From NCBI GenBank assembly GCA_026874595.1, contig CM049314.1:70322300-70386299 (forward strand): DNA of 64,000 nt, in the 5' to 3' direction. This document shows, piece by piece, positions 22,060-60,329 of the stretch (positions within the stretch are counted from its first letter, which is position 1; every line of letters begins with the position of its first letter). The notes under the pieces are model-generated. The model saw nothing but the letters and a program-made list of their open reading frames with translations, did not search any database and was not told the DNA's origin. This DNA is from Sipunculus nudus (Eukaryota > Annelida > Sipuncula > Golfingiida > Sipunculidae). The position numbers and the translations under genes are program-made.

Positions 22060-22140
22060 ATGGCGAACGATTTGGCGCAGTTTGAGACTTTATTACAAGG
22101 TCTACTCAACCAGGACAATGACATTAGGTCCAAAGCTGAG
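22060..22140 (+). CDS. IPO5: IPO5 exon 1 (aa 1-27)
   Basis: Encodes [16 protein letters not shown] and onward, the first HEAT helix region, ending GAG|GTGAGA in phase 0. The N-terminus is a few residues shorter than in vertebrates, which have an Ala-rich start. Intron 1 (22141-24815) holds a possible tRNA-SINE remnant near 23180 and GC-rich repeat sequence near 22985-23060, with nothing else recognised. Confidence 0.93.
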
Positions 22141-29549: not shown

Positions 29550-29588
<39 letters not shown>

Positions 29589-41500: not shown

Positions 41501-42098
41501 TCAAGTCTGGTATGATTTTAAAGTCTGTGGTGACTAAGTGCAAATAGTTTTAACCATACTCAACAGGTGGCAGCACATGGCAGTTACTGCAAAAATTCAA
41601 GTAATTTATGTCACCCGCTAGCAACATCTGTTGGTGATTAGAGACACTAAATATGCTGATTCATCAAATCAATAATAAAAGATGCTATTGTAATATTATC
41701 TTATCAGAAAGACACACCGAAACCAATCCCGTCCAGGGTATGCATAAGAGCAACCACTGACCCATATTTGATGCCTTAGGGTAAAGTTAATAGTTTATTA
41801 TCAATTTTCATTTATTCCAGCACCCCCGTGTCCGGTATGCATGCTGTAACGCGCTTGGCCAGATGTCCACAGATTTTGGCCCTGTGTTCCAAAAGAAATT
41901 CCATGAGAAGGTATTTTGAACCTATTTATTCTAGCATTTTATTTGAAAAAATTATGAAGGATAATCATAGAGAATGTGGAAATATTTGAATATTTAATAA
42001 TATTCTGTAAAATATAATCACACTCTGATGGCCAATTTTTATCTCTGAACTTTTTATTATAGTAATAATTTTAATATTGACCCTAACTTTTAAACTTC

Positions 42099-42178
<80 letters not shown>

Positions 42179-45100
42179 TAAATATATAAGAAAGAACTTT
42201 AAAAAACAGAAAATAGTTTTAATGTGATGAATTTTAAATGCCTGAAGAATTTCATGAAAGATATCTCTAACTTTTTGAAGCATTCTATCCAATTTTGAAG
42301 TATGATGCCAAAAATTATTATTTTTGTTTGTTTAATTGTTGATTAACATTGAAATTCACTGAAATAAAGATTACTTGAACATCATTTGTATTTAATATGT
42401 TAGCTGTTTGACTTGGTACCACAGAGTACTATTCTTATATATTTTATATAATGATATATTTACAGGTGGTACCAGGTCTCCTGAGTCTAATGGATGACAG
42501 CGCCAATCCACGTGTCCAGGCTCACTCCGGCGCTGCCCTTGTCAACTTCAGTGAAGACTGTCCTAAAGGCATCTTAACACCATACCTCGACACCATCATG
42601 TCCAAACTAGAACAAGTCCTTACTGCCAAATTTAAGGAGGTAGGAATCAGTCTATATCTTATCTACATACGTCGATACCATCATGTCCAAACTAGAACAA
42701 GTCCTCACTGCCAAATTTAAGGAGGTAGGAGTCAGTCTATATCTTATCTACATACCTCGATACCATCATGTCAAAACTAGAACAAGTCCTCACTGCCAAA
42801 TTTAAGGAGGTAGGAGTCAGTCTATATCTTATCTACATACCTTGATACCATCATGTCCAAACTAGAACAAGTCCTCACTGCCAAATTTAAGGAGGTAGGA
42901 ATCAGTCTATATCTTATCGACATACCTCGATACCATCATGTCCAAACTAGAACAAGTCCTCACTGCCAAATTTAAGGAGGTAGGAATCAGTCTATATCTT
43001 ATCTTCATACCTCGATACCATCATTCCAGAATTAGAACAAGTCCTAACTGCTAAATATATTGAGGTAAGAGCTGATTTCACCAGTTCAGAAATTGGTTCT
43101 GGTTCAGCAGAGATTCTTTTGAGTAATACTGCTGAAGGGGGGGGGGGGGGGTTTACTCTTGATTATTTTATCATTTGTGGATGAATTTTCACACTGCTCT
43201 GTTTTTGCTGCTACGATTTAAATTCTGACAACCTAATAAATATGTTGCCACCTTTTGTGACACAGTAGTGTTTTTACACATTTATGTATGAATTATGATT
43301 GAACAGCACTTTACTGCATCGCTGTGCTAGGGGGCACTTGAGGTTTTAAAAACATGGATGTATATAGGTGCAGTTATTGAGTTTTCTTGAGTTTTACTGT
43401 CAAAGTACCGACTGATCTCCGACTTTGCATTATATACATTACTTGCTCTGTTTTGAATCATAACCATATGATTTATTACCATAACACTATAAATAAATGT
43501 TTCATGTAATTCATGTAATTAAACAATTAATTTGCAAAAAATCATGTTTTGGTTTTTTATGTTTATGACAGACATTAATATTTTCTTTAATTTTTTTTCA
43601 AATATAAAATGATGAACATATTCTTTGAAAATACTTATCTTATGCCCGTGATATTATTTCGGACATTATTTTCCAGTCAGGTGAGAAGGGAACCAAGCTG
43701 GTGCTAGAACAAGTGGTGACGACCCTCGCGTCTGTGGCCGACACAGCAGAAGAGAAGTTCATACAGTTTTATGACAGGTACAAGTCCTAAGCTTAAAAAT
43801 ATTACTGTCAGGTCTTGTGATGGGCCAGTGATCTTTTATAATTGATGATCAGTCAGCTGATGCTTTATGATCTGATCATCATTCTTGCAGTGCCTTTCGT
43901 GGAAGCCAAGAGAAAGCATATGCTTTCATGTAATTCATATGAGCAAACTTTTGAAAGGTCTGTGCATATTAATGACTTCAAACCTAATGTTATGACATGC
44001 ACTTAAAGACTAGAATTATGACATATGGTATATAAGCAAATGTTTGGGCGTATATGTCAGTTGAGGCAATGTGCAGGTCTGTATACAGTCCAAATTTACA
44101 GTCTCCTAAACAACCAATTAATTCTGAGTATCGTTAGGTAATGGTCTACTGATTTTCACTGATGATAGATCATGTTATTACAACAGATTCCCAATAGTAG
44201 TTATGCCTAGCCTTCTTGTGAGTCATGTTTTATTTATGAGATGAACCAACCTCTTCTGAATCTCAAGGCTGATAGGTTTCACAGTTTTGCATTAAAATTA
44301 AGTTTAACAATATAAAAAGTCAGATAAATTGACTTAATTCATAAAATGAGATTAATATGTTTACATTTTGCCATCAATATTACAAAATTGATTGAGTACA
44401 AAAATGTATGAAATCATATTGTCTAACAAGAAGTCTTTTTATCTTTATTGAGAGACTTTGGCATAATTTATCTGTCATTACAAAAAAAAAATAACAGGAC
44501 TTTTTTGTAATCAACGAAGGCCCACACAAGAGATATTTTGTGTAAAGATGTTATTAAATGTGTTTAACAGCATTCTTTTAGGCTTCAACACAGCACCTCT
44601 TAGCCACCTCCTCAGTCATATCCTAATGTTTGTGTTAATGGATTATCCCCCATTGAATGATTTTTGTTTTCTCAACTGTTTATCAACATAATTTTATATC
44701 TCAGTTTAGTAATAAAGCTAATACAGCATAAGATAAGCAGTTCAACTGAAACATCTCACGTTAATCTTTTAACCTTGTTCTGTTTTTGACCCAGTGTTTT
44801 TGTTATGTTTTCAGGTTTATGCCCTGTCTGAAATACATCATGGAAAATGCAAATGGTCCTGACCTTAGATTACTCAAGGGCAAAACCATCGAATGTATCA
44901 GTCTAATTGGTCTGGCTGTTGGCAAGGACAAGGTGAGATAATGTATTTTTACTTGAGGAATATAAATCTTATGGTTGAAAATAGTGACAGAACATTGTGT
45001 GGATATGATTTCAGTAGAGAGAGGTGACAATTTTATATGTGGATAGGATGACTTGAACACAGGGATGAGAAACATTAATTTGGCGTTGGAAAAATGATTA

Positions 45101-48100
45101 CATAATGTGGTTGGCAATTTGTTTGCGAAGGTTTCAAATTTGTGATAACTGCAACTCAGGAACTGATGCTAAAAATGAAACCATCATAAATATATACAAT
45201 GCCTCATCCATACAGGGTAATGGTCATTTATAAGCAAATCTCATGGACACTTTATATCTATTATATCAATGTGACCACATCTTTAGGTTTAGAAGTTTCA
45301 AGGCGGAAGATTGATATTAAAAATTATAATATATTTTATCTTGCCTACAATTCAAAGATTTATATTATAAATATCATCAGGTCTTTCATATAATCTGTCT
45401 GAATCTTTGAATCCCTCCTTCCTTCCTTCAAAATATTATTTCCTTCAGCTTACAATTTATTCTGGTAAAGGTACACATTACTTGAGAAACAAACATAAGC
45501 TTGTTTCTAACTTCCTCCTAAAATTTGCATACTTATGAATATTTATAACACTTTACCATCTGTATGAAACCAGCCTCAGTATGCAGTGGATTCTGTCTGT
45601 AAGAACACCTGCCTTATAAAAAGACCTCTCTATCAAGACCACATTCTGGTGAACCAAAAGCATTCATATTGGTCTTAACTGATCTATCTACTGGTAATAA
45701 GACATCCTGTGCATTAAGAGCACTTTTGGCCAGTCCCAAGGGGTGATCTCATATCACAGGTTTTACTGTACAATCAACTCACCTTTGCACTGTTCACAAA
45801 GGCATTAATCTTTCCACTGCTGTAGGGATCAAATGTGTGGTAATTTAGAGTTGGGTATATAGAATGAGGAACTCTTACAAAATCCAGTGGTTGAGAATTT
45901 AATTAACTGGGTCAATCAGGACATTTCTAACAGAACAAGAAGGAATTGTTTGTGCTCAGCTCTTTATAAAAAAAAACTTTGTTATTGGTTCATGTTACAA
46001 AAGATTCATGCTTTATTTTTCATTTCAGTTTTCTCAAGATTGTAAAGATGTGATGCAGCTGTTACTACGGACACAAACAGAACAGAGTGATCTTGCTGAT
46101 GATGATCCTCAGGTAAGATGACCACCAGGGGGCAGTATACAACCTTTTGGTTAAGACTTTGGCCATAGGACCTTAAAGTATAGAATACAAAGCAAGCAGC
46201 TTTTACATACAGATATATTCTCTGAGCCAGATAAACATATTGACTGGTTGTATGAAATTTGGTTGCTCTTCATATCAACATGTTATTCAAATGTAAAGAT
46301 TTTTAGCTCAGCTGACTATAAGTCATCTGAGCTATAGTCGTGGTCCAGTGTCCGTCGTCCGTCCGTCTTTCTGTCCGTCCGTCCGTCCGTCTGGATGTCC
46401 GTCCGTAAGACTGGCACGTTTCCACACCGTTGGACCTACAAATCTAAAATTCGGCATACAGTTAGATGTCCCCAAAATCTCCTACCATGCTGAAAATTGG
46501 GTCAATAGGACTTCATTCCTTCGAGATATTAAGGAAAAACCTCAATTTTTTATTAGAAATCTATTTTCACACTTCAGGACTGCCTAATATCAAAACCACT
46601 CATCTGGTTTTCTTCATATTTACCATAATTATTCCTCTATATAGTTCCTATACACATGCCAGATATTAAGTCAGTATTATATAATTTAAAAAAGTTATGG
46701 GCCCAAACATAATGGACTTTGTAAAAAAATCAGGAAGATATTTGGTCACTTAAGACCAAAAGTGTTAAAGGTGGGGACTTTTTTCCAGTAATACAACTTT
46801 AAAAAATCAAAATTTATTGTATACCAAAAATTAGATCAAAATCTGTTAAATTTTTTTAAATATTGGCAAAAATATAAAATTGGTACCTTAAATTTTGCCC
46901 AACTTTGGCCACGGCACGTTTTTTTCCTGTAAGTACTGTGGATTTAATTTTCACAGCATGTATACATAAGGATTTAATCTGTTAAAATCTGAAATTTGAA
47001 AATAAAAGCTGCAAAATTAGGCTAGTTATTGAATTTTTTTGGAGGCTCTTGTTGTATTCCCTTACATTGTCAAGCAGTCCACTTTGATGACTGTAGGTCA
47101 TTCAGTGCACATCTCTGCTCCCCAGGCTGTTGGCATAATTTTAGATGTCCCCAAAATCTCCTACCATACCGAAAATTGGGTCATTAGGACTTTGTTCCTT
47201 TGAGATATTAAGGAAAAAAACTCTGTTTTCCATAAAAAAAAGCTATTGTTACACTTCAAGGCTGCCTGTTTTTGATGGTATTTAGTATTCACATTCTTTC
47301 ATACATTTTCTATGAACATACCAAAAATTAGGTCAGTATTGGGTATTATTTTGAAGTTATGGGCCAATACATAATGCAATTTTTTTTAAAAATTAGGAAA
47401 TATATTTACTCACCTAACATGAGAATTGCTGAACTTAGAGACTTTTTTTTTTCAGGAATATAACTTTATTTAATCAAGATTCAATTGTTTACCCAAAATT
47501 AGATTTGAATTTTGCAAATATTTCAAGTTATTAGCATAAATAAAAAATCACTACCTTAAATTTTGTCCAACTTTGGCACTGTTGATTTAATTTTCACAGC
47601 ATATATACATAAGGATTAAATCTTTTAAAATCTGAAATTTCAAAGAAATTGATTGGAAAGAATAGCTTTTATTCATGTTTTCATACACCATGTCAAGTGT
47701 TATTTACATCTAGCCCATGTAGTAGTACAGCCTTCACTTGCATTATGTAACCCACCCCAGGCAGCTTGCCTTGGGTCAGCCTGGCCACTACCAGCAGGCT
47801 TCCCCTCTGCCCTGCACTCCCCCCCCCCCCCCCGATGGTGCATAAACTAGATGAATGTTATTATTTTCTGTATTTGATTCATTCTTATTCTAGGCTATGC
47901 TACATTTAAGATTTTGTATTGTACCACCAGGGTTACAATGATTAAAGTGTACATTTAATTGTGTCCACAAAGTGGTATATTGCTATGAAAGTGTGGATGT
48001 TCATCAGATAAGTAATTCCTTACTTCAGAAGAGTAAAAACTTCACCAGGTGTGAAATTGACTATTAATTCCAGTAATAAATTAAAACTGGGATAGTAATT

Positions 48101-51100
48101 AGCACAATGATATTGTTTGGCCCTCATTCAATCAACAGTGTGTATACTTTATTTGAAAAGATGTTTTATTTTATCAAATTTACTTTTATTTTATTTTGGT
48201 GGACAAAATTAAGCATGTACTGAAAACTCCAATGTGCAAAACTTTTTGATAGTGATTCAAGGAATATTCTTGTAGATGCCATGTTGTGGCATTATTTTCT
48301 TTTAAATTCAATTAAACATTTATGATTTAAAAATAATAAAATATATGTGTATGCATAATATGACCAAATATGAGCTACACTCTGGATTTATGATGATTGC
48401 AACTTTTGCAACAATTCTAATATTTTAACTTATAGTTTCAGTTTTTTACTCTGTATATTTAATGATTGCAGCTTTTGCAACAATTCTAATATTTTAACTT
48501 ATATTTTCAGGTTTTTTTATTAAAAATTTATAAAACCTGTAAATAAAAAAATGATTCAGATAAAAACTTCTTAATGGAAAAAGTGGATATGCTTAAAAAA
48601 ATAGGAATATATAAACTTAAATGCATTATTCCCTTGAAAGTGAAATAAAGGTATTAGTCCATTCTGTCCACTTGCCTGTCCATCTGTAAATTTTCATATG
48701 CATCACAGTATCTCAAAATTTTACTGTTTTTCTTCATGACAGTCTTGTCAGAGTATTAGTTTGCAATCATATATTTAGAACTTTACTATAACCAAGTAGG
48801 AGGGCCCCTTTCCTCTTAGCTTTTCATATTCTTATATAAATGAAAAACATTACAATAGAATATTTCTACATCCACCTTTGTGCTGCCCTCACTTTTCCCT
48901 TCTCCAAACCCCATCCCAAAGTCAGCCTCAGTAAGCAAGAACAAGATGAATCAGATATATTCGTACTTTAATATTTTGTATAACTATTCGTCCATAGGTA
49001 CCTATGTACATGCCAGAAATTATGTCAATATTGTGTAATATGTAGACACAGTGGGCATCACAATAATGTACCTTATCAAGACTAAAGAGATATTGTGTCA
49101 TACAGTCACAAATTCATAAATCACTTCATCAGCATAGTTAATCATAACATCATATCTGTCAAATTGAAAGCTTGCAGACTACCATACACTTTAGATCCTT
49201 CAACAAATAGCCTTATCATCGTTCTACTACTGCTTATTACTGCTGTCATTGCATTCATATTTGCTCAGAAATACCGTATTTATTCTAATTTGGCGACCAC
49301 TTAAAAATAATTAATTTTCTCAGAGGTCGAGACAATAGAGGATATTTGAAAATTATCTTCCTGCAGAATTTGTGGTGGTCGAGATTTTAGAGGCACGCGG
49401 TTTAATAACCTTCCCTAGAGCCGCAGAGCCGCTCTGACACTCGAGCGGTCATATGAATTGAGTGATAATTTGGTCGTTTATAAGTTTGTTTTGTTAGCTA
49501 AACAGTATTTCCTACAAACGGGCTTTCAACCGTCACATGAATTACATGGTGTCCACAAATGATTAATGAAACTGAGCTCAATCACTTTACAAAATGATCA
49601 CTACTTCGCGTATGTACGATGACATAGACGGCAACGGGGCTTCCCCGTACTTGGTAAATATTATTGCTAATTATCCCACGTGAATCGCACACGAGACACG
49701 TGCGTACCAGGAATGGTACACAAGTTTGCTTCGTCACGGACACCCATTTGGAACTTGAACGCTTTATCATGTTTATATATTATGAAAAACGCATCTTTGT
49801 ATCTTCAAAAATTTTATTGCAAACAAGTTTGATGTGGATGCTCAGTGTAATAAGAATCTTGTCAGATACAAACTGCGGTGCCCGTGAGAGACGGAGGCAT
49901 TACACCTTAACATCGTCGACAGAAAACATTGTGGGCAGTCGCGAAATTAGAGTCATTTTAGAAATTATGCTTTCAAAATATTTTTTGGGGTCGAGAAATA
50001 AGAGGGATCGCCAAATTGGAATAAATACGGTATCACAATTTTCAACCCCTTCTAAATAAATAAAAAATAAACCACTATATTTGACTCTATTAATCCATCA
50101 GTCAGGTAATTTCATTTATCATTTACTCACATATTACATTACATTCCTTTATAATAGCCCAACATGTCCATGATATGCATAAGCTTTATCTACTCGATAT
50201 AGTATCACAGTGGGGAAACATTTATAGTCCAATCACGATCAGCTGAGCACCGTGACTCATGGGTCCCTTGTTAATGATTATTTTCCAGTTGTTATGAAAT
50301 AAAAAACTTGTCCTTTAGCCAACAGACCTTGCTCTTTATTGGTGTGTTCTGAATCATTCTTTTTATCTCCAGGTCAGATAAAGGATAATTAATGTTCCTC
50401 CCTAATATGCAAGAGCCTTAATATGCCTTATTAATTATACATATATATTTCAATTCATGTTTTTGTACTGGGAAGTTCTTTACTTAAATGTAGAAACTTT
50501 TTTTAAACATACCAAATTGTAATCTTTTGCGATTGATATACCAATGCATAAATTTTATGACATATGTAAGACATCTAAAATATCTTATTAATTCAGTGAT
50601 ATTACTAAGTGACTATCACTGTGCAAATCTGACTATTATAACTCTGTGTAAATTCAGATATCCTACTTGATATCAGCATTGGTCCACATGTGTGATATCC
50701 TGAATAAAATACATGTTTCACTGTATAATAACCTGTGTGATGATATCTAACAATATCTATCTGTGACTGACAGATATCCTACATGATATCAGTTTGGGCT
50801 CAGATGTGTAAGATATTAATTAAGTACAAAGTTTACTGTGTGATTATTTCTGACAATATTTCTCTCTCTAGATATCCTACATGATATCAGCATGGGCAAG
50901 GGTGTGTAAGATCTTATTTGAGTACAGAGTACACTGTGTGATTATATCTGACAATATCTCTCTCTCCAGATATCGTACATGATATCAGTGTGGGCCCGGA
51001 TGTGTAAGATATTATTTAAGTACAGAGTACACTGTGTGATTATATCTGACAATATCTCTCTCCAGATATCGTACATGATATCAGCGTGGGCCCGGATGTG

Positions 51101-54100
51101 TAAGATATTATTTAATAACAGAGTACACTGTGTGATTATATCTGACAATATCTCTCTCCAGATATCGTACATGATATCAGCGTGGGCCCGGATGTGTAAG
51201 ATATTATTTAAGTACAGAGTACACTGTGTGATTATATCTGACAATATCTCTCTCCAGATATCGTACATGATATCAGCGTGGGCCCGGATGTGTAAGATAT
51301 TATTTAAGTACAGAGTACACTGTGTGATTATATCTGACAATATCTCTCTCCAGATATCCTACATGATATCAGCGTGGGCCCGGATGTGTAAGATATTATT
51401 TAAGTACAGAGTACACTGTGTGATTATATCTGACAATATCTCTCTCCAGATATCGTACATGATATCAGCGTGGGCCCGGATGTGTAAGACATTATTTGAG
51501 TACAGAGTACACTGTGTGATTATATCTGACAATATCTCTCTCCAGATATCGTACATGATATCAGCGTGGGCCCGGATGTGTAAGATATTACTTAAGTACA
51601 GAGTACACTGTGTGATTATATCTGACAATATCTCTCTCCAGATATCGTACATGATATCAGCGTGGGCCCGGATGTGTAAGATATTACTTAAGTACAGAGT
51701 ACACTGTGTGATTATATCTGACAATATCTCTCTCCAGATATCGTACATGATATCAGCGTGGGCCCGGATGTGTAAGACATTATTTGAGTACAGACTACAC
51801 TGTGTGATTATATCTGACAATATCTCTCTCCAGATATCGTACATGATATCAGCGTGGGCAAGGATGTGTAAGACATTATTTAAGTACAGAGTACACTGTG
51901 TGATTATATCTGACAATATCTCTCTCCAGATATCGTACATGATATCAGCATGGGCCCGGATGTGTAAGACATTATTTGAGTACAGAGTACACTGTGTGAT
52001 TATATCTGACAATATCTCTCTCCAGATATCGTACATGATATCAGCATGGGCCCGGATGTGTAAGATCTTATTTGAGTACAGAGTACACTGTGTGATTATA
52101 TCTGACAATATCTCTCTCCAGATATCGTACATGATATCAGCGTGGGCCCGGATGTGTAAGATCTTGGGTACAGAGTTTCAGGAGTACCTACCGCTTGTGA
52201 TGGGACCCGTCCTCAAAGCTGCCTCCCTCAAACCAGAGGTGGCGCTAGTTGACTGTGAGTAGCTTTGTAGTGTTCCTTATCATATCTCAGCGTGGACTGG
52301 TGCCCTGAGCTGCTTTTGGTTAACTTCAAAGTTTACAAACTTAAGCCACAGATTAATAAATTAATAAAAGGGGAAAGGTTCCAAGTCAAAAATGTTTTTA
52401 GAAGGATCAGTGTTTAACTGACTTTTAGAGTATGAGTATATTGTAATAGCTCAAGACTTCTACAAATGTTAGTCAAATATTATTCAGTAAAACACCAAGT
52501 AGAAATGCCATAGGTGGCTTTTACCTTGGCTTTACAATATATTCCTGTGTGTAGAAGTTTATGTTAGGCTGAAGCTTGAGAAAGGAATCAAGTAAGTGAA
52601 AAATAACTGACTTAGTATTTCTTGACTAAAATTTATGACTACTATTCCTGACTTGAATTCCAACTATTGTGTATTTCAGCGGATGACATGGCATCCATGG
52701 AAGATGACACAGACTGGCAGTTTGTTACTATTGGTGACCAGGTAAAAATACACTTATAGTGATACCTTAAATCATGATGAGTGCATTTTGTCAAATTATC
52801 AGTACTTCTGTTTTCATGCTTCTGTGGAAACCGTGTAAAAATTTAACTTAAGAGTGAATTACTTTAGACAATATTGCAAAATTTTTTTTTTTTTTAATTT
52901 TCACTTTTGTTCAAGGTCCACAGGTGTAATGTTTGTATTGAAGACCTGAAAAGAGTAACATTACAGACATTTAACTGCAACATTTTTTTCACAGCACCAA
53001 AACTACTGCATAACATTGTTATAAGTATAGAGCCTCCCGTAGGTTTAATAATTTATACCCTAAAATGATGTAACAAGAACTTTCCAGAGTAATCCACTCA
53101 TGATAAGACAATGGCCGTTTTCTGATAACAGAAAAAAATCAGTGTTTACACAGCTAGTAGCCATTTTCCAAGCACACCTGTCAATTTCTTTGGGACCTTT
53201 CTAAAAAATAGCTATATAGAAAGAATTGACCAAAAAGTATATAACTGATAAATAAACCAAAAACTTAAATTTGTAATATCATATTTGGGAAGGTATGAAA
53301 TGTTCAAATTTTGATTTGGGCTATTTACACTGCAGCAAAGCTTTGGTATCCGCACTGCTGGACTGGAAGAGAAAGCGACAGCCTGTCAGATGTTGGTGTG
53401 TTATGCTCGTGAGCTGAAGGAGGCCTTTGCTCCCTATGTTGAAGAAGTTGTCAAACTGATGGTTCCACTGCTAAAATTCTACTTTCACGATAGTGAGTGA
53501 TTGTTCCTGAAGCCAGTATGTGGGAACTTAATGTCCACTGAGTGTCAAATTGTTCCTTTGAAAATCCTGTTTATTATATGAAACAGGAATCTTAAAACCC
53601 AGATCATTTTTTGTATGGTCTAAAAATAAAAATACACCAGACCACATGTTTTAATGTCAGAATACTTTGAGCCCTGAAATAGATCTAAATTCCGATCATA
53701 CTGCCTTTGGACCACATACAGTAAACTTCAAAATTACAACCACTAGTTGGACTGCTTTTTTGAGGTGGTCATCTGAGTGAGATCTTACATAAAGAGCAAA
53801 AATGAATCGGGACTGTGATCAAGTGGTCATAATTTTGAGATGGTCGTTAAACAGAGTTGGTCGTTAAGTGAAGTTTTACTGTAATATATTTAAGTCTCAC
53901 TTTAGCTTCTTATATCAACTTAGTTTAAGTTTAACACTGAAACTTTGCTTGAAATACAAATATTTGTCTGTGCATCATCCTTTTTAGGCAGTGCCACCTG
54001 CTGGCCAGTATCCTACACTATTGTTTTATTTTACAGGTGTCAGAACAGCGGCAGCAGAGTCCATGCCATTCCTTCTGGAGTGTGCTAAGTGTCGAGAACC

Positions 54101-57100
54101 GGGGTATTTACAACAAATGTGGGCATTTATCTCCCCGGAGCTGCTAAAGGCCATTGACACTGAACCAGAAACAGATATCAGAACAGAACACATGCATTCT
54201 CTGGCACAGGTGAGGCAGAAGGGCTCTCTTTAATATTAAATCTCCTGTGTGGGGAAGAAAATAAAAATGGGGGACAGTTCCAGTTCATCCACATCTTAAC
54301 TTGATATTTATTTGAATTTTGTTAAATAAATAGGATCATGTCTGTTGGTGCTACATCGTTACTGGTCTAAACAAAGTCTGAAATTTGGAAAGAACTGTAG
54401 TTTTAAGTGAGCATTACATCATGAAAGGTTCATAGTTTTACTGTTGTAATAATTCATTTTTGAAAATTAAAAAGTTAAAAAAAAAAATTTAATTAATATA
54501 TAATAATGAAAAAGACATTAATTGGTAACAGTTATGATGCAGTCAGTATGATAGTTATATTAAGCATTATTAAAAAAAAATGTAAATTTGCCTTTTGTGA
54601 ATTTTTATTTTGATGATTTTATATATTTTTCTTTATGATGTCAGTGTATAGAAAAGATGGGCAAAGGCTGCTTGAACGATGAACAAATGTCAGAGCTGGT
54701 CCGTATTCTCGATAAAATTTTGGTGGAACACTTCGACAGGCAAGCCAAAAGACAAGGTAACATTGATTAAATGCTGTATCTCTTTTAAAGCCATCTTTGA
54801 TTGATGGAGGAAAAGCATGAGATATTACGTTTCCTTTCTGATGTAAAAAGAGTGTACCCTTCTGGCAGAAAGTGTGGAATCAGAATTTTTAAGTGTAAAA
54901 TCTGAACCAGTTGTGTGGTTCATAAAATCATTAATCAGTGTATGGACAAGATTTAAACACTTCTGGATTATATTCACCAAAATTCTTGCATTTTATATTG
55001 AATTGTCAGTATGCCCTCAAGATATATATTTCATTTTCAAATATTTTGTTTGTATCATAAATTTGCTAGAAACAAATGTATATTGATATTATTTCTCTGA
55101 GAATAGTGTTATCTTTTCTGGGAGCAAATTGTACAAAAATCCAAAATTGTACAAAAACTTTTGTTACTTCTGGGGGCATTTGCTTGAAAGATGTTTTACA
55201 TATGTAATATCATGTGACCTGGACATCATGTGACCTGTCATGTGACCTTTTTTGTTCTAGAACAAAGGAAAGATGAAGACTATGATGAGGTTGTAGAAGA
55301 AACACTCCTTGACGAGGTAAGACGTTTGTTTCTAATAAAAAAAAAAATTATCTCTCATGAATACATATCCATGTTGATTTTTTATGAAAGTTGATTTATT
55401 TTCCTAACATTATGTAGATAATATTGTCTTCTCTGAAACTTTTTTTCTTAGTGAGTCTGTTTCCTAATCTTTGGCATAATTCTGTATCATGAAAATGTCT
55501 GAAATATGTAAAAGTAATTTTATTCATAAAAGCTAAACTGCAGTTTTCGGAAGATAAAATTTGTACTGGTCATAAAGATAATTATTGTATGCCTGTCCTA
55601 TAGGAGACTTAGTATGGTATGCTCACCGTCCATCTGTTAACTTTTCACAAAACTCACTCTAACTACCAAGATTATCTTGCCCAAATTTGATTCTGGGCAA
55701 AATTATTGAGGTCAAATGTCAGTAGGCCTCTATTGTGTCACTGCTGTATCTTTTCCAGGAATATTATAGATTTTAGTGAAATTAAAAGGAAAATTAAATA
55801 TTTTATCTCACAAATGATCAATTCATGGCAAAATCCTTTCATATATTTAATGAGGTCAGAGGTCACCAAAATTTGGTGACACCATGATAACTTGCTACAA
55901 ATCTGGATTTTCATGAAACTTAAATTTACCAATATATTTTCTCACCTGAATTAAATTCTGGACCAAAATCCTCGCAAATTTAATGAGGTCAGAGGTCGGA
56001 TTGTCTTTAACGTTTTGTGTTTCAGGATGATGAGGATGTATATACTCTAAGCAAGTTGTCAGACATGATGCATGCATTGTTTGGGACACACCAAGAAAGT
56101 TTCTTACCTGTGTTTGATAGACTGTTGCCACATTTTGCTAAACTATTGGTGAGTGTAACTTTAACAAAAATGTTTATTCCTCTGTTGATTGTATTTCAAG
56201 ACTTGTAAAGCATAAAATTTTAATATGATAGACGATATTCATGGGTTCATTTAATTCTTAATTTTATATATTTAACTTGAATACGGTGCTTACTCTTGGG
56301 TTAAATTTTAAAAATGGTAAAACTAAAAAACAGAAACAGTATGGAAACAAAGAATTGTATATGAATATTTGTTGTATTTGGGTCAGTTTTACAGTTGGGA
56401 GGATTCAGTCAGATTCATATAGAGTGTTAAATAATAAAAGAAAGTTGAAGTGATACAGAAATCTACACTGCTTAAAATAATTTTCAAAGATTGACAAAGA
56501 TTACTTTCCTTATCCAAAAAAAAATGTTCTTTTTACAAGAAATCTTTAAGGTATTTTTCTTGATTTAAAGGCAGCATGCTTAAAGTCAAGAAAATATATC
56601 TAGATTTTCTTAAAAAGTCCCGTGACTTTTGATCTGTTTCAGGGTGCTGATAGACCTTGGCCTGACAGACAGTGGGGACTTTGCATATTTGATGACCTAT
56701 TAGAACATACAGGCCCAGTAAGTATATGTTATGCCAGCAAAACATGAAGATAATCATTTGTTTTAACAAGTATTTATCTGTGTATTTTCTTAAGATTTCT
56801 CCACAGCTCTGCCCACCTGTTTTCTCCCTGATTACATTTTTATAAGGCAACTGAGCTCAAGAGGAATAGTTCATAGCTTAGTGGTTGAGACATTGGACTC
56901 AGGACTGAAGGTTGTGGGCTTAAACCCCTGGGGTTCCTGGCAGGCAAAAATTATGAAATCCCTTTATTGAACCTCCAAGAGTTCCTCAGGCTTAACAATA
57001 GGTTATGGCTAATGGATTATTCCTAGTATAATACATGTAAAACCTGCAATCAAGAAAGCTTTAAAAACATTATACCATTCTTATCATATTGTTGCCTTTA

Positions 57101-60100
57101 TCTTTATGCAGTAGGAAGCGCCACCTAGTAGCCAAGGACTTGTGCTTCAAAGAAAAATAAAGAAAAAGTATTGTCTGCAGAGTTATACATAGTAATTTCC
57201 TTGCAGGAGATGAATTAAGTATATCTTATATTATAACATTTCTTTGCAGCACTCCTTGAATTACCGGCAGTACTTTCTGGAGCCAATGTTGCGTTTCACC
57301 TGTGATAGCCAACCAGAGGTCAGACAGGCAGCTGCATATGGTGCAGGAGTTATGGCCCAGTTTGGGACTGAAGCATACGCACAAGCCTGTGCAGGTAAGC
57401 TGTTCTTTTCTGATTTTATCAGACAAGCCAGTTTACAATATTTTTTTCAGGATATCTACATTAGAACTTTGAACTGTTTTGGGAAAAAGGATTTTGTTTA
57501 AAATCAGTGTATACAATTCAATTTAAAATGAATATAACTCTTAAAAGAATTCTCAAAACCTTTTCATAAGTATGAATCTGAAAAATGTTAAATGTTTTGC
57601 ATTATAAAATGATATTGTTTTAAAGCATTTTGTGTTAAGCCTTATATTTCTGTATATTTTGTTGTTTTCAAATTTCCTTATTTAGTTTTATTGTACTTGT
57701 GGGATATTGTGTGCAGTATTTCCATACATCAAGGCAGCCAGTCAGTAACTACATTGGAGATTTCTTAAACTGCAAATGTGATGAATCTTTAGCTCATTGG
57801 AAATCTTACATTACAACTAGAAATCTGCACTCTAATGTTCGCAAGCCTCCACCATTTTGGGATTCCCCAACCTGTGTTTGCATTAACTTATTCAGCCCAT
57901 ATTCCCAGGTTCATTCGTACATAAATGACTCTACATGTATGAATATTGAGAGTTATGTTGAGAACAAACAAACAAACACACACACACACAAATGGAGATA
58001 AATGGTTAATTTAATTAATACTTTTGTGCTGGTATTGATTTGTAGAAGCCCTACCATTGTTAGTCAAAGTAATACAGGATCCTGAGTCACGGCAACCTGA
58101 GAATACTCCCCCGACAGAAAATGCAATATCAGCTGTGACCAAGATTTGTAAATACAATGCCAGCCAGGTCAACATCGCAGACATCCTGCCTCACTGGTTG
58201 TCATGGTTACCGGTCTGGGAAGACGAGGATGAAGCAGTGCATATATATGGATACTTATGTGACCTTGTCGAAAGGTTAGCATGACTAGTTTTGTGATAGA
58301 TCTTAGTAATTAAGATCTGTTGATGGTAACAAAGACATACTGTAATGCTTACTCAGGTAATAATGTTTGTGCAGCTGTCTGTCACAAAGAGACCACAGTA
58401 ATTGGAAGGTTTTCACAGTCATAATAAGATGCTTTAAAACCTGATATATAGTTGTTTTTCAAATATACAGAATTTTACTCAAGCACTGGTCTATGACAGT
58501 GTACCAGTTTTGTTGAATGTTTAATTTATGGCAGAAATTTGACTTATGGTTTCAAAAAGGCTATTTAAAGATGATTTTAATATACGTGCCATGCAAAAAT
58601 GTTGAAAATCCATTGACTTTGCTGTCTTCAGGACTTGTTGCCATGACCCCATTTTAACTATAGTGACATAATGATATTTTCATGGGTTACTGTGCAGAGT
58701 CCCTGTCTTAAGCCTTGAATTAATTACTTCTACTGCTCCCAGATGACATATTTAAGTATTACAATAATAGGAAAAAATACTTTTAAAGGTGTGAATTCTT
58801 TTTATGTATATCTTTATTTTGTTATTTTTTTTTAAATGGTGGATTAATACTCCTCACACATGTATTTAGAAATCTTAACCTTTGGTACATAAAATGTTTG
58901 TGTTTAATAAAAAATGTCATAATTTGTTTTGTCTAACTTTGTTGTTACCAGGTAGTAACAAATAACTGAAATGTATAAAAGTGTATTGCAGTGTAGATAT
59001 AAATCCCAAAGGTTTTGTGAACAGATATTATGTTTTAGTCAAATTAAAAGTAGACACACTGTTTGCTCTTTGGTATCACAAAGTTTAGCATATGATTGGA
59101 TCTGTGGTATAAAATCATTCTCCATTTCAGCAACTGCCTGCAGATACTTGGGGAGAATAACCAGAACCTTCCCAGGATCCTTAGCATAATTGCGGAAGCG
59201 CTACACAAAGAAGCTCTACCAACAGATAACGAGGTCATTAAGAGGCTGGTTAATATTGTTAAACAGGTCCAGGTAGGTCATGTGACTACTTGCTAATATA
59301 TTCTAATAAGACCAAAAAGGATTGGTTCAGTCTTTGTTTCCGTTTGCACATATAAGAGTGAACTGAATGAAGTGTCCGGTAGTACAACGAACACCGACCC
59401 CCCCCCCCCACAACCCCCCCCCATTAAAAAAAGGTGCTTGACTGAGATTATTTTGTCAGGAATCCCTTAATTTTTTTTCATGCACATGTGCGAGTATGCA
59501 GATTAGATGGACACATGGGTTCGTCACTGTTACAAAATCATATGAGCAATTTTTCAAGTATAAGCACATGGATGCACATGAGAGTTTTAAAATTACAATG
59601 AAACTCCCATTTATTGAAATTGTCAGGACCAGGGGATTTGTCTTTCAAATATGTGCCGGTATGGAAAAAGTTGTAAACATTTGTATGTTTAATTGGATCA
59701 TCAATGTGTTCATAATAAACAAGTGTCTAAAATAGAGATGTGTCTATAATAGAAGGGTGTCTATAATATAAGGGTAGCTGGGCTTTCCCTGAATATCCTT
59801 GATATTATTTTATATACTGGTACTTGTAACATTATTATAATAACAACCCCTGATACTTGTAATCAAACGTTGTTAGAAGCTTATGGTGCTAGTTACGAAT
59901 CGCAATGTGTGATATTTAGTTTTCATCACCAAAAAATGTCCCAGAAATGGATTTTCTGTGACTTGTAATGTCATGACTCATGAATTTTCAAGAATTGAAG
60001 AAACTTAAGAAATTCTACGATTCTAGCTGTCAATTTTCAAAATGCAAAAATACTTTTAAGAAATACAATTTTATAAATATAGTAATTTACAGAAATTTAG

Positions 60101-60329
60101 AAAAATCAGCTTGAAAATCCAGTTGCATGAAATTAAGTAATTACATTATGGCCACATGAGTCTTATTGAATACTAAATGTTTTATCATTGGGTTGGAAAT
60201 ATTGGTTCCATGGTTAATGTCAAATCATTGTTTTCTTTTATTTTACAGAGTAATGGAGAACTATTTGCTGCATGTGTGTCTCAACTGACTGAGCAGCAAC
60301 AACAGGCATTGATGGCTGCCCTGGCTTGA
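22060..60329 (+). CDS. IPO5: importin-5 (RanBP5/karyopherin beta-3), 28 coding exons, whole gene span
   Basis: Importin-5 is a HEAT-repeat importin-beta family receptor. It carries cargo such as ribosomal proteins and core histones through nuclear pores and releases it on RanGTP binding. Joining 28 exons gives 3282 nt, or 1093 residues plus TGA, against about 1097 for vertebrate IPO5. Collinear hallmark blocks run from start to end: AALLIRRLF (exon 3), PGIFGNQQ (5), [12 protein letters not shown] (10), [10 protein letters not shown] (11), [15 protein letters not shown] (12), [11 protein letters not shown] (14), [16 protein letters not shown] (15), [15 protein letters not shown] (17), [16 protein letters not shown] (19), [16 protein letters not shown] (24), [16 protein letters not shown] (25), LPHWLSWLP (26). 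An acidic loop (exon 9) is conserved. All introns are GT-AG with matching phases. The start ATG has A at -3 and G at +4 and an in-frame TGA nine bases upstream. The odd features are the two tandem arrays at the exon 13 donor and the exon 17 acceptor. Confidence 0.97.
23178..23240 (+). repeat. tRNA-derived SINE remnant (tentative)
   Basis: TAGCGTATAGG resembles a Pol III A box, and GTAGGTTCGATTGCC about 25 bases on resembles a B box (GGTTCGANTCC) with one mismatch. It lies in IPO5 intron 1. A cloverleaf cannot be completed convincingly, so it is not called as a tRNA gene. Confidence 0.35.
24816..24896 (+). CDS. IPO5: IPO5 exon 2 (aa 28-54)
   Basis: [19 protein letters not shown]..., matching the conserved ETYENIPG segment of importin-5. 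Acceptor TTTAG, donor GTAAGT, phase 0 at both ends. Intron 2 (24897-31757, 6.9 kb) is the largest and carries several mobile elements listed separately. Confidence 0.95.
24951..25335 (+). repeat. dispersed intronic repeat, copy A
   Basis: Shares GATCATCAGTAAAAA, TTGGTTGTTTAG, GACCTGTACATCA and TGACTGATCATCAG cores with 28975-29340 (same orientation) and 43805-44178 (inverted). Ends are not defined. Likely an old interspersed element. Confidence 0.6.
25800..25966. mobile_element. solo end related to foldback elements 1 and 2
   Basis: Contains reiterated CCTGATTG/CAGACCAA-type modules. It ends GATCTGGGCCTTGCCA followed by TATATA, like the right tip of element 2 (TCTGGGCCTCGACA followed by TATATA). 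No matching left tip was found in intron 2. It looks like a degraded third family member. Confidence 0.5.
26479..27933. mobile_element. hAT-type MITE with perfect 8-bp target duplication
   Basis: The element occupies 26487-27925 (1439 bp). The left end CAGGGTTGGCAATTTCTTCC and the inverted right end (CAGGGTTGGTTTTCTTCCGG on the opposite strand) are hAT-like. TTTTGTGG is directly repeated at 26479-26486 and 27926-27933, exactly abutting both tips. Subterminal TTTCTTCC motifs recur in both arms. There is no transposase ORF inside, so it is non-autonomous. Located in IPO5 intron 2. Confidence 0.85.
28564..28870. mobile_element. short MITE (307 bp), copy 1
   Basis: Starts AGGCACAAAAAAAGTATGGT and ends ACCATACCTTTTATT...GCCT, i.e. 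terminal inverted repeats. It matches 39125-39417 along its length, including TCAGGGAAAAG, GGTAAAAGCACTAC and GAAATCTTATCAAA. It contains a G run (28805-28817). No clear target duplication here. In IPO5 intron 2. Confidence 0.7.
28975..29340 (+). repeat. dispersed intronic repeat, copy B
   Basis: Direct relative of 24951-25335, with GATCATCA, TGACCTGTACATC and ACAGGCCTA cores in the same order. Divergence is substantial. Confidence 0.55.
29501..29693 (-). mobile_element. cluster of hAT-like MITE ends
   Basis: 29501-29523 reads on the minus strand CAGTGGCGAATCCAGAGGGG. 29651-29693 reads on the minus strand CAGGGGCGTAGCCAGGGTGG. Both are recurrent tips of hAT-derived MITEs in metazoans. A (TA)n run (29553-29584) lies between them. 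Partner ends are not found nearby. Confidence 0.5.
29553..29584. repeat. (TA)n microsatellite, 32 bp
   Basis: Alternating AT run in IPO5 intron 2, between two MITE ends. Confidence 0.95.
30385..30600. mobile_element. hAT-like MITE fragment with poly-G run (tentative)
   Basis: CAGGGGTGGATCAGGGA followed by a run of about 20 G, then repeated GGGGGGTCCAGGC / GGGGGGTTCAGAC segments, ending in a C run near 30595. Similar in style to 13674-13900. No target duplication found. Confidence 0.4.
31758..31950 (+). CDS. IPO5: IPO5 exon 3 (aa 55-119)
   Basis: [20 protein letters not shown]..., corresponding to the MAAVLLRRL helix of importin-5 and the start of the RanGTP-contacting N-terminal arch. The exon ends ATC G|GTGAGC, phase 1. 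Intron 3 (31951-33020) contains ~140-bp repeats with DR1-like AGGTCAGAGGTCA, perfect at 32511-32523. Confidence 0.96.
32190..32535 (+). repeat. intronic repeat family carrying DR1-like sites
   Basis: Degenerate tandem units of about 150 bp with the core CATATTNNATGAGGTCAGAGGTCACC. Units end with ATTTTCATGAAA-type stretches. Relatives are at 37310-37690, 55620-56000 and 60590-60900. Confidence 0.7.
33021..33123 (+). CDS. IPO5: IPO5 exon 4 (aa 119-153)
   Basis: [17 protein letters not shown]..., aligned with the conserved DEDGNNQWPE segment. Acceptor TATTACAG, donor GG|GTAAGC, phase 1 to 2. Intron 4 (33124-33496) is plain AT-rich sequence. Confidence 0.95.
33497..33593 (+). CDS. IPO5: IPO5 exon 5 (aa 153-185)
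   Basis: [19 protein letters not shown]..., matching [12 protein letters not shown] of vertebrate IPO5. Ends AAT|GTAAGT, phase 0. Intron 5 (33594-36221) is half occupied by the TA-flanked element at 33726-35121. Confidence 0.96.
33726..35121. mobile_element. TA-flanked inverted-repeat element (1396 bp)
   Basis: The left tip CTGTAAAATCTCCACTAAAA is mirrored by the right tip (opposite strand CCGTAAAATCTCCACTTAAA), with TA on both sides. Further GCGGTTT motifs lie in both arms. The interior has no transposase-length ORF. Fits a Tc1/mariner-type or other TA-targeting non-autonomous element. Confidence 0.72.
36222..36326 (+). CDS. IPO5: IPO5 exon 6 (aa 186-220)
   Basis: [19 protein letters not shown]..., aligned with the ATAAFILANEHN helix of importin-5. 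Phase 0 at both ends, donor CAG|GTGAGA. Intron 6 (36327-38100) holds two dispersed repeats (36359-36930 and 37310-37690). Confidence 0.95.
36359..36930 (+). repeat. mollusc-type dispersed repeat
   Basis: Begins TTTTTAGCCACAGCCTTTGA with GTCCGTCCGTCTGTC. It contains two related halves marked by GAGCAGGATATCTCCAA near 36458 and 36747. Non-coding. Confidence 0.6.
37310..37690 (+). repeat. DR1-carrying intronic repeat, second locus
   Basis: Three degenerate units with AATGAGGTCAGAGGTCACCA (perfect DR1 at 37372-37384), AATGAGGTGAGAGGTCACC and TTGAGGTCCGAGGTCAC. Confidence 0.7.
38101..38226 (+). CDS. IPO5: IPO5 exon 7 (aa 221-262)
   Basis: [20 protein letters not shown]..., equivalent to the [21 protein letters not shown] segment. 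Phase 0, donor AAG|GTTTGT. Intron 7 (38227-38913) carries a poly-C run near 38460-38472 and nothing else recognised. Confidence 0.95.
38914..39034 (+). CDS. IPO5: IPO5 exon 8 (aa 263-303)
   Basis: [20 protein letters not shown]..., aligned with the QRQLALEVIVTLSET helix pair. Ends CTG G|GTGAGT, phase 1. Intron 8 (39035-39884) contains the MITE copy at 39125-39417. Confidence 0.95.
39125..39417. mobile_element. short MITE (293 bp), copy 2, with target duplication
   Basis: Same family and orientation as 28564-28870. Tips AGGCCAAAAAAATGTATGGT and ...ACCATACCTTTTATT...GCCT. TAATATT flanks both sides (39118-39124 and 39418-39424), extendable to 8 bp if the last T is counted as host. Confidence 0.78.
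39885..39972 (+). CDS. IPO5: IPO5 exon 9 (aa 303-332), acidic loop
   Basis: [17 protein letters not shown] followed by a run of Asp/Glu. This matches IPQMLAMMVDLEEDEDW and the acidic insertion loop of importin-5. Donor AG|GTAAGT, phase 2. Intron 9 (39973-40426) is unremarkable. Confidence 0.96.
40427..40533 (+). CDS. IPO5: IPO5 exon 10 (aa 332-368)
   Basis: [20 protein letters not shown]..., a signature block of importin-5. Phase 2 to 1. Intron 10 (40534-41173) shows no repeat of note. Confidence 0.97.
41174..41298 (+). CDS. IPO5: IPO5 exon 11 (aa 368-409)
   Basis: [20 protein letters not shown]..., HEAT helices matching [20 protein letters not shown]. Ends CCT|GTAAGT, phase 0. Intron 11 (41299-41820) has no recognised element. 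Confidence 0.97.
41821..41910 (+). CDS. IPO5: IPO5 exon 12 (aa 410-439)
   Basis: [20 protein letters not shown]..., near-identical to vertebrate IPO5. Phase 0 at both ends, donor AAG|GTATTT. Intron 12 (41911-42465) carries the (TA)n tract at 42102-42173. Confidence 0.97.
42102..42173. repeat. (TA)n microsatellite, ~72 bp
   Basis: Alternating TA run followed by TATAAATATAAATATATAAG, in IPO5 intron 12. It yields a spurious Ile/Tyr-repeat ORF on the minus strand. Confidence 0.95.
42466..42639 (+). CDS. IPO5: IPO5 exon 13 (aa 440-497)
   Basis: [20 protein letters not shown]... to ...[11 protein letters not shown], matching [20 protein letters not shown]. Authentic donor AAGGAG|GTAGGA at 42639/42640, phase 0. 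The last 59 nt plus 26 nt of intron form the 85-bp unit that is tandemly copied downstream. Confidence 0.93.
42581..43080 (+). repeat. 85-bp tandem array spanning the exon 13 donor (six copies)
   Basis: Copies start (CATAC...) at 42581, 42666, 42751, 42836, 42921 and 43006, all exactly 85 bp apart. Copy 1 is the genuine exon 13 end with its donor. Copies 2-5 are almost identical and each keeps AAATTTAAGGAG|GTAGGA. Copy 6 has diverged and carries GAG|GTAAGA, a stronger donor by consensus, plus TCATTCCAG, a possible acceptor. Reading on from the authentic donor meets TAA at 42718-42720, so use of downstream donors would truncate the protein. Confidence 0.93.
43677..43777 (+). CDS. IPO5: IPO5 exon 14 (aa 498-531)
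   Basis: [20 protein letters not shown]..., matching [25 protein letters not shown]. Acceptor TTTTCCAG, donor AG|GTACAA, phase 2. The part of intron 13 beyond the array (43080-43676) includes a G run near 43138-43151. Intron 14 (43778-44814) holds an inverted dispersed repeat. Confidence 0.96.
43805..44178 (-). repeat. dispersed intronic repeat, copy C (inverted)
   Basis: On the minus strand it shows GATCTATCATCAGTGAAAAT, TTGGTTGTTTAGGAG, GACCTGCACATTGCC and TGACTGATCATCAATTATAA, in the same order as 24951-25335. Confidence 0.5.
44815..44932 (+). CDS. IPO5: IPO5 exon 15 (aa 531-570)
   Basis: [15 protein letters not shown]... then [18 protein letters not shown], diagnostic for importin-5. 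Ends AAG|GTGAGA, phase 0. Intron 15 (44933-46028) has a MITE-like remnant at about 45590-45772 ending GGTTTTACTGTA. Confidence 0.97.
46029..46112 (+). CDS. IPO5: IPO5 exon 16 (aa 571-598)
   Basis: [20 protein letters not shown]... ending DDDPQ, matching DVMQLLLKTQTDF...DDDPQ. Donor CAG|GTAAGA, phase 0. The intron after it (46113-52121, 6.0 kb) ends in the 96-bp acceptor array. Confidence 0.96.
46301..47640 (+). repeat. mollusc-type dispersed repeat with ~680-bp internal duplication
   Basis: The head TTTTAGCTCAGCTGACTATA with a GTCCGTCCGTCC run matches 9671. A block with TAGATGTCCCCAAAATCTCC at about 46463 recurs at about 47142, followed by the same flanking text (ATTGGGTCA, GAGATATTAAGGAAAAA, ATATACATAAGGATT). 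A tail like that of 11877-11915 is at 50239-50278, so the unit may originally have extended that far. Confidence 0.65.
49272..50032. mobile_element. TA-flanked inverted-repeat MITE (757 bp between TA duplications)
   Basis: The left tip CCGTATTTATTCTAATTTGG and the inverted right tip CCGTATTTATTCCAATTTGG differ by one base and are flanked by TA on both sides. Subterminal GGTCGAGA motifs occur in both arms. A 131-codon frame overlapping the right end has no recognisable domain and runs past the tip, so it is not called a gene. Confidence 0.82.
50658..52165 (+). repeat. 96-bp tandem array spanning the exon 17 acceptor (16 copies)
   Basis: Exon-like starts (ATATC[C/G]TAC after CAG or TAG) lie at 50658, 50774, 50872, 50970, 51066, 51162, 51258, 51354, 51450, 51546, 51642, 51738, 51834, 51930, 52026 and 52122. 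The first three intervals are 116, 98 and 98 bp, and the remaining twelve are exactly 96 bp. Each unit contains TCTGAC (branch-point-like), a CT-rich tract, CAG, and the codons for [14 protein letters not shown]. The rest of the unit is intronic plus a short TACAGAGT stretch also present in the real exon. From 50970 to the exon there is no stop in the exon frame; a TGA at 50949-50951 closes that frame further upstream. Confidence 0.96.
52122..52254 (+). CDS. IPO5: IPO5 exon 17 (aa 599-643), start is the last array copy
   Basis: [20 protein letters not shown]... then PEVALVD, closely matching vertebrate IPO5. 52122 was chosen as the start because it joins DDDPQ directly to ISYMISAW, as in other species. 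Any of the twelve acceptors from 50970 to 52026 would also keep frame and add 32 residues per unit. Ends GAC T|GTGAGT, phase 1. Intron 17 (52255-52679) is plain. Confidence 0.92.
52680..52741 (+). CDS. IPO5: IPO5 exon 18 (aa 643-663)
   Basis: [20 protein letters not shown]..., aligned with the acidic MSDDDGWEFVNLGDQ segment. Phase 1 to 0, donor CAG|GTAAAA. Intron 18 (52742-53335) has no recognised element. Confidence 0.94.
53336..53492 (+). CDS. IPO5: IPO5 exon 19 (aa 664-716)
   Basis: [20 protein letters not shown]..., ending [13 protein letters not shown]. Very close to vertebrate IPO5. Phase 0 to 1, donor A|GTGAGT. Intron 19 (53493-54036) contains the MITE at 53719-53881. Confidence 0.97.
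53719..53881. mobile_element. TA-flanked short MITE (163 bp)
   Basis: Left tip CAGTAAACTTCA, inverted right tip CAGTAAAACTTCA, TA on both sides. Internal AGTGGTCAT/GAGGTGGTCAT and TGGTCGTTAA motifs. No coding content. Confidence 0.7.
54037..54209 (+). CDS. IPO5: IPO5 exon 20 (aa 716-773)
   Basis: [20 protein letters not shown]..., matching GVRVAAAESMPLLLECA. Ends CAG|GTGAGG, phase 0. Intron 20 (54210-54644) is AT-rich and plain. Confidence 0.96.
54645..54756 (+). CDS. IPO5: IPO5 exon 21 (aa 774-811)
   Basis: [20 protein letters not shown]..., aligned with CIEVMGDGCLNDEHFEEL. Donor CAA G|GTAACA, phase 1. Intron 21 (54757-55260) has a short TGTGACCT repeat near 55214-55246 and nothing else. 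Confidence 0.95.
55261..55316 (+). CDS. IPO5: IPO5 exon 22 (aa 811-829)
   Basis: [19 protein letters not shown], matching RQDEDYDEQVEESLQDE. Acceptor TTCTAG, donor GAG|GTAAGA, phase 0. Intron 22 (55317-56025) contains a DR1-carrying repeat. Confidence 0.94.
55620..56000 (+). repeat. DR1-carrying intronic repeat, third locus
   Basis: Units with TTTAATGAGGTCAGAGGTCA (perfect DR1 at 55853-55865) and a second at about 55985 with AGGTCAGAGGTCG, ending 25 bases before the exon 23 acceptor. Confidence 0.7.
56026..56148 (+). CDS. IPO5: IPO5 exon 23 (aa 830-870)
   Basis: [20 protein letters not shown]..., aligned with [21 protein letters not shown]. Phase 0 at both ends, donor TTG|GTGAGT. Intron 23 (56149-56642) is plain. 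Confidence 0.96.
56643..56717 (+). CDS. IPO5: IPO5 exon 24 (aa 871-895)
   Basis: [20 protein letters not shown]..., the hallmark [16 protein letters not shown] block. Acceptor GTTTCAG, donor CCA|GTAAGT, phase 0. Confidence 0.97.
56862..57000 (+). repeat. tRNA-derived SINE remnant
   Basis: TAGCTTAGTGGTTGAGA (A-box-like, 56874 on) and GGTTGTGGGCTTAAACCCC (B-box-like, near 56910) are spaced as in a tRNA-related Pol III promoter, with a tRNA-unrelated body after. It lies in IPO5 intron 24 (56718-57249). Too degenerate for a functional tRNA. Confidence 0.55.
57250..57394 (+). CDS. IPO5: IPO5 exon 25 (aa 896-944)
   Basis: [20 protein letters not shown]... with [18 protein letters not shown], matching [18 protein letters not shown]. 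Donor GCA G|GTAAGC, phase 1. Intron 25 (57395-58045) contains only a short CA run near 57975-57990. Confidence 0.97.
58046..58274 (+). CDS. IPO5: IPO5 exon 26 (aa 944-1020)
   Basis: [16 protein letters not shown]..., [15 protein letters not shown] and [18 protein letters not shown], all matching the C-terminal HEAT repeats of importin-5. Donor AG|GTTAGC, phase 2. Intron 26 (58275-59130) has no recognised element. Confidence 0.97.
59131..59272 (+). CDS. IPO5: IPO5 exon 27 (aa 1020-1067)
   Basis: [20 protein letters not shown]..., aligned with [22 protein letters not shown] and ending VNIVKQVQ. Donor CAG|GTAGGT, phase 0. Intron 27 (59273-60248) has C runs near 59399-59421 and is otherwise plain. 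Confidence 0.96.
60249..60329 (+). CDS. IPO5: IPO5 exon 28 (aa 1068-1093 and stop)
   Basis: [20 protein letters not shown]..., then TGA at 60327-60329. Vertebrate IPO5 ends similarly with an ECIAQLSPEQQAAIQ-type helix. Confidence 0.95.
   Translation, partial: SNGELFAACVSQLTEQQQQALMAALA

Follow-up and report, generated by a model that had tools for sequence, protein, structure and literature searches.

A 64,000-nucleotide stretch of Sipunculus nudus DNA (contig CM049314.1, C9:70322300-70386299; called the window here, and the source of all coordinates without a contig prefix) holds the gene for importin-5 (IPO5), in which intron 16 ends in a series of repeated exon 17 acceptors, 16 in all. 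Judging from the sequence, we consider this array to be probably a minisatellite straddling an intron-exon junction, a phenomenon described in other genes as a 'mirage', with splicing mainly at the last acceptor and a frame-neutrality most simply explained by chance. A previous sequence-only reading of this DNA had left two possibilities, either a HEAT-like domain of variable length, with a maximum of 384 amino acids, or a splicing machinery that ignores a dozen equivalent decoys, and it is the second that is better supported by the data below.

The exon-start copies lie at 50658, 50774 and 50872 and then at 50970+96n up to 52122, giving 13 acceptors spaced exactly 96 bp apart, as had been claimed. 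Tandem Repeats Finder (TRF) reports the array at 50771-52162 with a period of 96, 14.5 copies, 95% matches and a score of 2482. Twelve complete, near-identical junction units (50970..52121, + strand) are 0-3 bases off their consensus, and each holds the exon 17 start, an ATTT-containing middle, a branch-point-like TCTGAC, a CT tract and CAG. The unit ends in TCTGACAATATCTCTCTCCAG, in which the A of TCTGAC stands 16 nt before the final G, and exon sequence then continues for at least 42 nt, so the earlier description of a complete acceptor module with the first 14 codons of the exon was accurate. It was also correct that the unit is stop-free in the exon frame from 50970, as that frame is open over 50952-52262 (a 436-aa open frame). 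Two parts of the description need amending. The unit does copy the exon start for ~44 nt, but it departs from the exon edge beyond that, where the extra bases ATTT and then exon-like GAGTACAGAGT follow; units carrying these extra bases must have been copied from each other and not afresh from the exon. The three older, diverged units (50658..50969, + strand) do exist, but their intervals are 116, 98 and 98 bp instead of 96 bp and they contain stops in the exon frame, whereas the twelve units at 50970-52121 are open in that frame and divisible by 3. In keeping with a mirage, the repeat unit spans the exon-intron boundary at exon 17, the inner units are homogenised (concerted evolution) while the edge units have diverged, and it is an exon edge, 5′ or 3′, that is repeated, as is also the case for the exon 13 donor and the myosin exons discussed below.

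IPO5 occupies 22060..60329 on the + strand, from its ATG to its stop, with 28 exons in total: 26 modelled exons with GT-AG edges, and two N-terminal exons located by tblastn at ~22060 and ~24816. Since these two precede the modelled set, the junction exon is number 17, and the number given to it previously stands once they are counted. The spliced translation without the first two exons is 1039 aa long, and its residues 3-1036 align with human IPO5 (6xte). Exon 16 (46029..46112, +) ends in ..DDDPQ with the donor CAG|GTAAGA, and exon 17 proper (52122..52254, +; 133 nt, donor ACT|GTGAGT) is joined to the last array copy. The 26 modelled exons measure 56-229 nt, and intron 16, at 6009 nt, is the longest among the 25 introns measured; a dispersed repeat with several further copies downstream (67-89% identity) lies within it at 46297-47644.

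Two further copies of exon 17, found by a genome search with this exon 57 and 86 kb downstream, provide controls for what the array does outside a working gene. The segments containing them (B and C) match window positions 50460-52889 piecewise and hold only exons 17 and 18 of the modelled IPO5 exons, and exon 17 is frameshifted in both. Allowing up to 5 mismatches per acceptor, the dead arrays have 29 (B) and 41 (C) acceptors, mostly 98 bp apart, as opposed to 16 in the live gene, all three numbers coming from one haplotype; the larger arrays in the dead copies indicate that repeat growth needs no gene function. Intervals divisible by 3 make up 12/15 in the live array, 0/28 in copy B and 2/40 in copy C. 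The pyrimidine tract of the live unit is shorter by one CT pair, which accounts for 96 versus 98 bp, and the unit preceding 50970 has one extra CT. Mean unit distances are 0.030 within the live array and 0.029 between B and C, compared to 0.082 and 0.076 between the live array and B and C, respectively. The diverged first units and the flank are common to all three arrays, from which it follows that the array already existed when the segments were copied and that each lineage was then homogenised separately. Exon 18 (52680..52741, +) is found in both segments (C9:70431941-70432002 and C9:70460682-70460743) at 100% identity over 62 bp, and the introns and exon 17 there are ~9-10% different.

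Given this anatomy, a tandem duplication over the intron 16 / exon 17 edge would have copied the entire acceptor module. The last copy, with a complete acceptor before it, continues into the remainder of the exon, and therefore the gene would work and the array would be free to grow. Because the inner units are near-identical and the edge units diverged, we infer that unequal crossing-over or slippage then expanded and homogenised the array. In the live gene a unit lacking one CT pair would have taken over, producing a frame-neutral array most simply by chance. As local acceptor sequences are equal, splicing mainly at the last acceptor would come about through exon definition. The exon 17 donor is 133 nt away from the last acceptor, but 229 nt from the one before it and 325 nt from the one before that; only the last one gives a normal-size exon with the real donor and for this reason should be favoured, with the next one being the likeliest leak. 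The nearest decoys may be used at a low level, adding 32 or 64 aa in frame. Every unit also carries TGT|GTAAGA 34 nt past its acceptor, and a microexon between these two candidate signals is possible, though it would break the frame. RNA structure that hides the decoys was considered and rejected, as the last two units with exon 17 have no folding advantage over shuffled sequences (z +0.48; 68/100 of these as good).

Several observations weigh against a mirage with a single working acceptor and accidental frame-neutrality. Using a matrix built from the other 25 acceptors of the gene, which is a small sample, the true exon 17 acceptor has the second lowest score of 26 and does no better than the decoys; acceptor strength was rejected as a discriminator, and with equal scores nothing local shows why the true site should win. 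The 23-nt acceptor window is identical at 12/13 sites (51066-52122, the true site included), with only that at 50970 slightly different. None of the 12 distinct variants in live units falls in the acceptor part, compared to 13/35 in dead units (Fisher p 0.021); here all live variants are in columns 0-57 while the dead ones split 22 and 13 at a cut chosen after the data were seen, and the dead set consists of 51 units of exactly 98 bp, with one edge unit and all units of other lengths set aside. Narrowed to the stretch from branch point to AG, the same comparison gives p 0.087, and an invariant run as long as the 43 nt in live units, at any position, has p 0.009 under uniform placement, a post hoc value. 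Among exon-derived changes, live units have 5 silent and 2 altering ones, dead units 4 silent ones, 13 altering ones and 1 stop (p 0.058). The frame-neutrality of the array is itself a point of this kind, with 12/15 intervals divisible by 3 against 2/68 in the dead copies. All of these p values are optimistic because the units are related, and the pattern fits two mechanisms alike: selection on the last unit spread by turnover, or real use of the decoys.

The second of these mechanisms leads to the alternative that survives best, unlikely as it is: leaky, tolerated use, in which joins to the near decoys are so common that a unit which breaks the frame, holds a stop or has a damaged acceptor harms the gene and is purged, and IPO5 carries zero to a few 32-aa blocks without a particular function. 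Units that are frame-neutral and open in the live gene, as opposed to the mostly 98-bp dead units, would be expected from this, as would an invariant acceptor part with mostly silent exon-derived changes; furthermore, 11 decoys share the 23-nt window of the true site, and the exon made by the next acceptor, at 229 nt, would be the size of the gene's largest modelled exon. However, the 96-bp type may have one origin, bringing the contrast between live and dead arrays close to a single event, the relatedness of the units weakens the p values here too, and selection on the last unit alone, together with turnover, gives the same pattern. The middle part of the live units (columns 42-57) varies freely, with 5/5 changes altering, and therefore the unit peptide itself is not conserved. 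The donor array at exon 13, described below, is frame-breaking and yet tolerated. We regard it as rather improbable that the acceptors of the live array are interchangeable and selected through use, with frequent joins to near decoys letting only in-frame, stop-free units with intact acceptors persist, a minisatellite tamed into a frame-neutral stutter while the dead copies drift at mostly 98 bp; if this were true, an individual's importin-5 would be a ladder of lengths changing with array length.

An assembly artefact, with the repeat number wrong or the array spurious, is very unlikely. Near-identical tandem units are easily miscounted, and one amphioxus mirage was aberrantly assembled in a draft genome according to PMC3087553, but this assembly comprises 1.43 Gb in 153 contigs and the units bear distinct variants in order. 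The three arrays also differ in number and unit type yet share diverged edges, though the exact count may be off.

The least probable explanation is the regulated functional domain, in which the choice among alternative acceptors would provide importin-5 with between 1 and 12 copies of a HEAT-like block of 32 aa. The 436-aa open frame and a block that would begin at a conserved exon border speak for it. On the other hand, it needs exons of up to 1285 nt against the 56-229 nt of the 26 modelled ones, and the same repeat expands out of frame in the dead copies. When four units and exon 17 were modelled together from the single sequence, the predicted local distance difference test (pLDDT) score was 43 and helix alternated with strand; this is weak evidence, but it offers no confident fold for the HEAT-like domain, which is not supported. 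Relatives were taken as the best 120 of 1008 and the best 120 of 161 matches in the two protein searches. Among the matches listed, the closest over the full length are an ENA protein (73%), a JGI protein, the brachiopod Lingula and the annelid Lamellibrachia (69% each); over the first 667 residues of IPO5, identity is 76% to the ENA protein, 70-71% to Lingula and Lamellibrachia, and 64% to the amphioxus Branchiostoma belcheri. With 70-76% to four proteins, lophotrochozoan or unnamed, in this part, IPO5 most likely comes from a lophotrochozoan, and the lower amphioxus value speaks against an amphioxus source. In 120/120 of the best 120 of 1008 matches (97 by pattern, 23 by alignment) DDPQ leads on to the exon 17 peptide with nothing inserted at the alignable junction, and none of seven words of the unit peptide occurred in any of the 233 proteins among the matches listed, in a database seemingly without the species itself. 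In one of the 120, an importin-5 of Acipenser ruthenus (P0001, 1318 aa), a first DDDPQ is directly followed by a long duplicated block that precedes the alignable junction, at the same exon 16/17 border; this is either an exon-block duplication or a gene-model error.

IPO5 contains a second junction array, which lies on the donor side, as the mirror image of that at exon 17, and is frame-breaking. It spans 42581..43067 (+) and covers the donor of exon 13 (AAGGAG|GTAGGA) with 5.7 copies of an 85-bp unit, and the last ~59 nt of exon 13 (42466..42639, +) form its first unit. The period is no multiple of 3, and reading on past the donor leads to a stop that ends at 42720. By score, the farthest donor, in the diverged last unit (43064), is the strongest (10.1 versus 7.8), and not the frame-fitting one. 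A genome search found exon 13 at a single locus.

Junction arrays were also looked for in the surroundings of 55/75 Myosin_head matches (119 kb), using profile-match edges in place of exon edges and reading splice signals by eye. A tandem array crosses the match edge in 4/55 sampled myosin exons: donor arrays at C7:52357806-52358805 (36 bp x 27.8), C8:6313735-6313890 (83 bp x 1.9) and C5:8167675-8167865 (61 bp x 3), and an acceptor array at C9:5933487-5933963 (82 bp x 5.8). A fifth, at a donor (C12:77122065-77122134, 35 bp x 2), overlaps by 3 bp only and is below the cut. There is no enrichment of arrays at exon edges in this sample, since arrays of period at least 20 cover 8.1% of the 119 kb and this alone predicts ~9/110 edges by chance, against the 4 exons found. 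Periods are divisible by 3 in 2/7 distinct junction arrays (two in IPO5, five in myosins); the 36-bp myosin array is divisible by 3 but meets TAG at once, and 35, 82, 83 and 61 are not divisible. Calculated from the base composition of the window, the chance of divisibility by 3 along with 18 open intron codons is 0.088, and that of at least one such array in seven is 0.48.

Some further repeats were noted along the way. Each unit of the myosin array on C7 has CATACTGACAG|GTCAGT, then TAG in frame. The sampled introns of a myosin gene at C9:48047000-48051999 are largely minisatellites near exons (57 bp x 13, 48 bp x 52, 43 bp x 22). The window also holds a large tandem array at 9764-11762 (337 bp x 5.9, 80% matches), and two short arrays at 7425-7551 and 9193-9319 whose related, TCTGGGCCAGCCCAGAT-like units are in opposite orientation and are possibly the ends of one element.

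Acceptors that compete for one exon are familiar from NAGNAG tandem acceptors and mutually exclusive acceptor clusters. The IPO5 array is like these in having competing acceptors, and differs in that whole modules with the same local sequence stand 96 bp apart and were made by a minisatellite. A 2002 paper by Canestro in NAR is reportedly connected with amphioxus mirages. In the open-licence PMC literature, mirages were found in two amphioxus papers only and in no importin, in agreement with the earlier reading that no importin case had been described, though absence from print is not proven and the phenomenon itself is not new. Junction-straddling minisatellites are apparently not peculiar to amphioxus, with two in one gene here and 4/55 sampled myosin exons. 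With dead copies as neutral controls, the IPO5 arrays offer a natural setting for asking whether exon definition or proximity guides the spliceosome when acceptors are equal, and they bear on the meeting of repeat turnover and selection where a splice junction is repeated and on the origin of new exons or introns. On that last point, PMC3087553 covers intron or exon gain by internal splice-signal duplication (the Rogers model and its successors), where tandem acceptor and donor-like signals are likewise the raw material; unlike such gains, the IPO5 array shows no evident new intron or exon, and its internal TGT|GTAAGA donor would break the frame.

The closest likeness is to the amphioxus mirages described in PMC3087553 (globins BflGb6 and BflGb9) and PMC3902484 (PGBD5, with Adh and TnC cited as further mirage genes). 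These are likewise minisatellite-like tandem duplications of an exon-intron boundary, in which either edge can be hit, splice signals are contained in the units, inner units are homogenised and edge units diverged, and the genes are apparently intact; they are reported not to disturb regular splicing. The IPO5 array differs from them in its host, which is not an amphioxus, and in having 13 complete acceptors in register, a frame-neutral unit and dead copies that can be used as controls.

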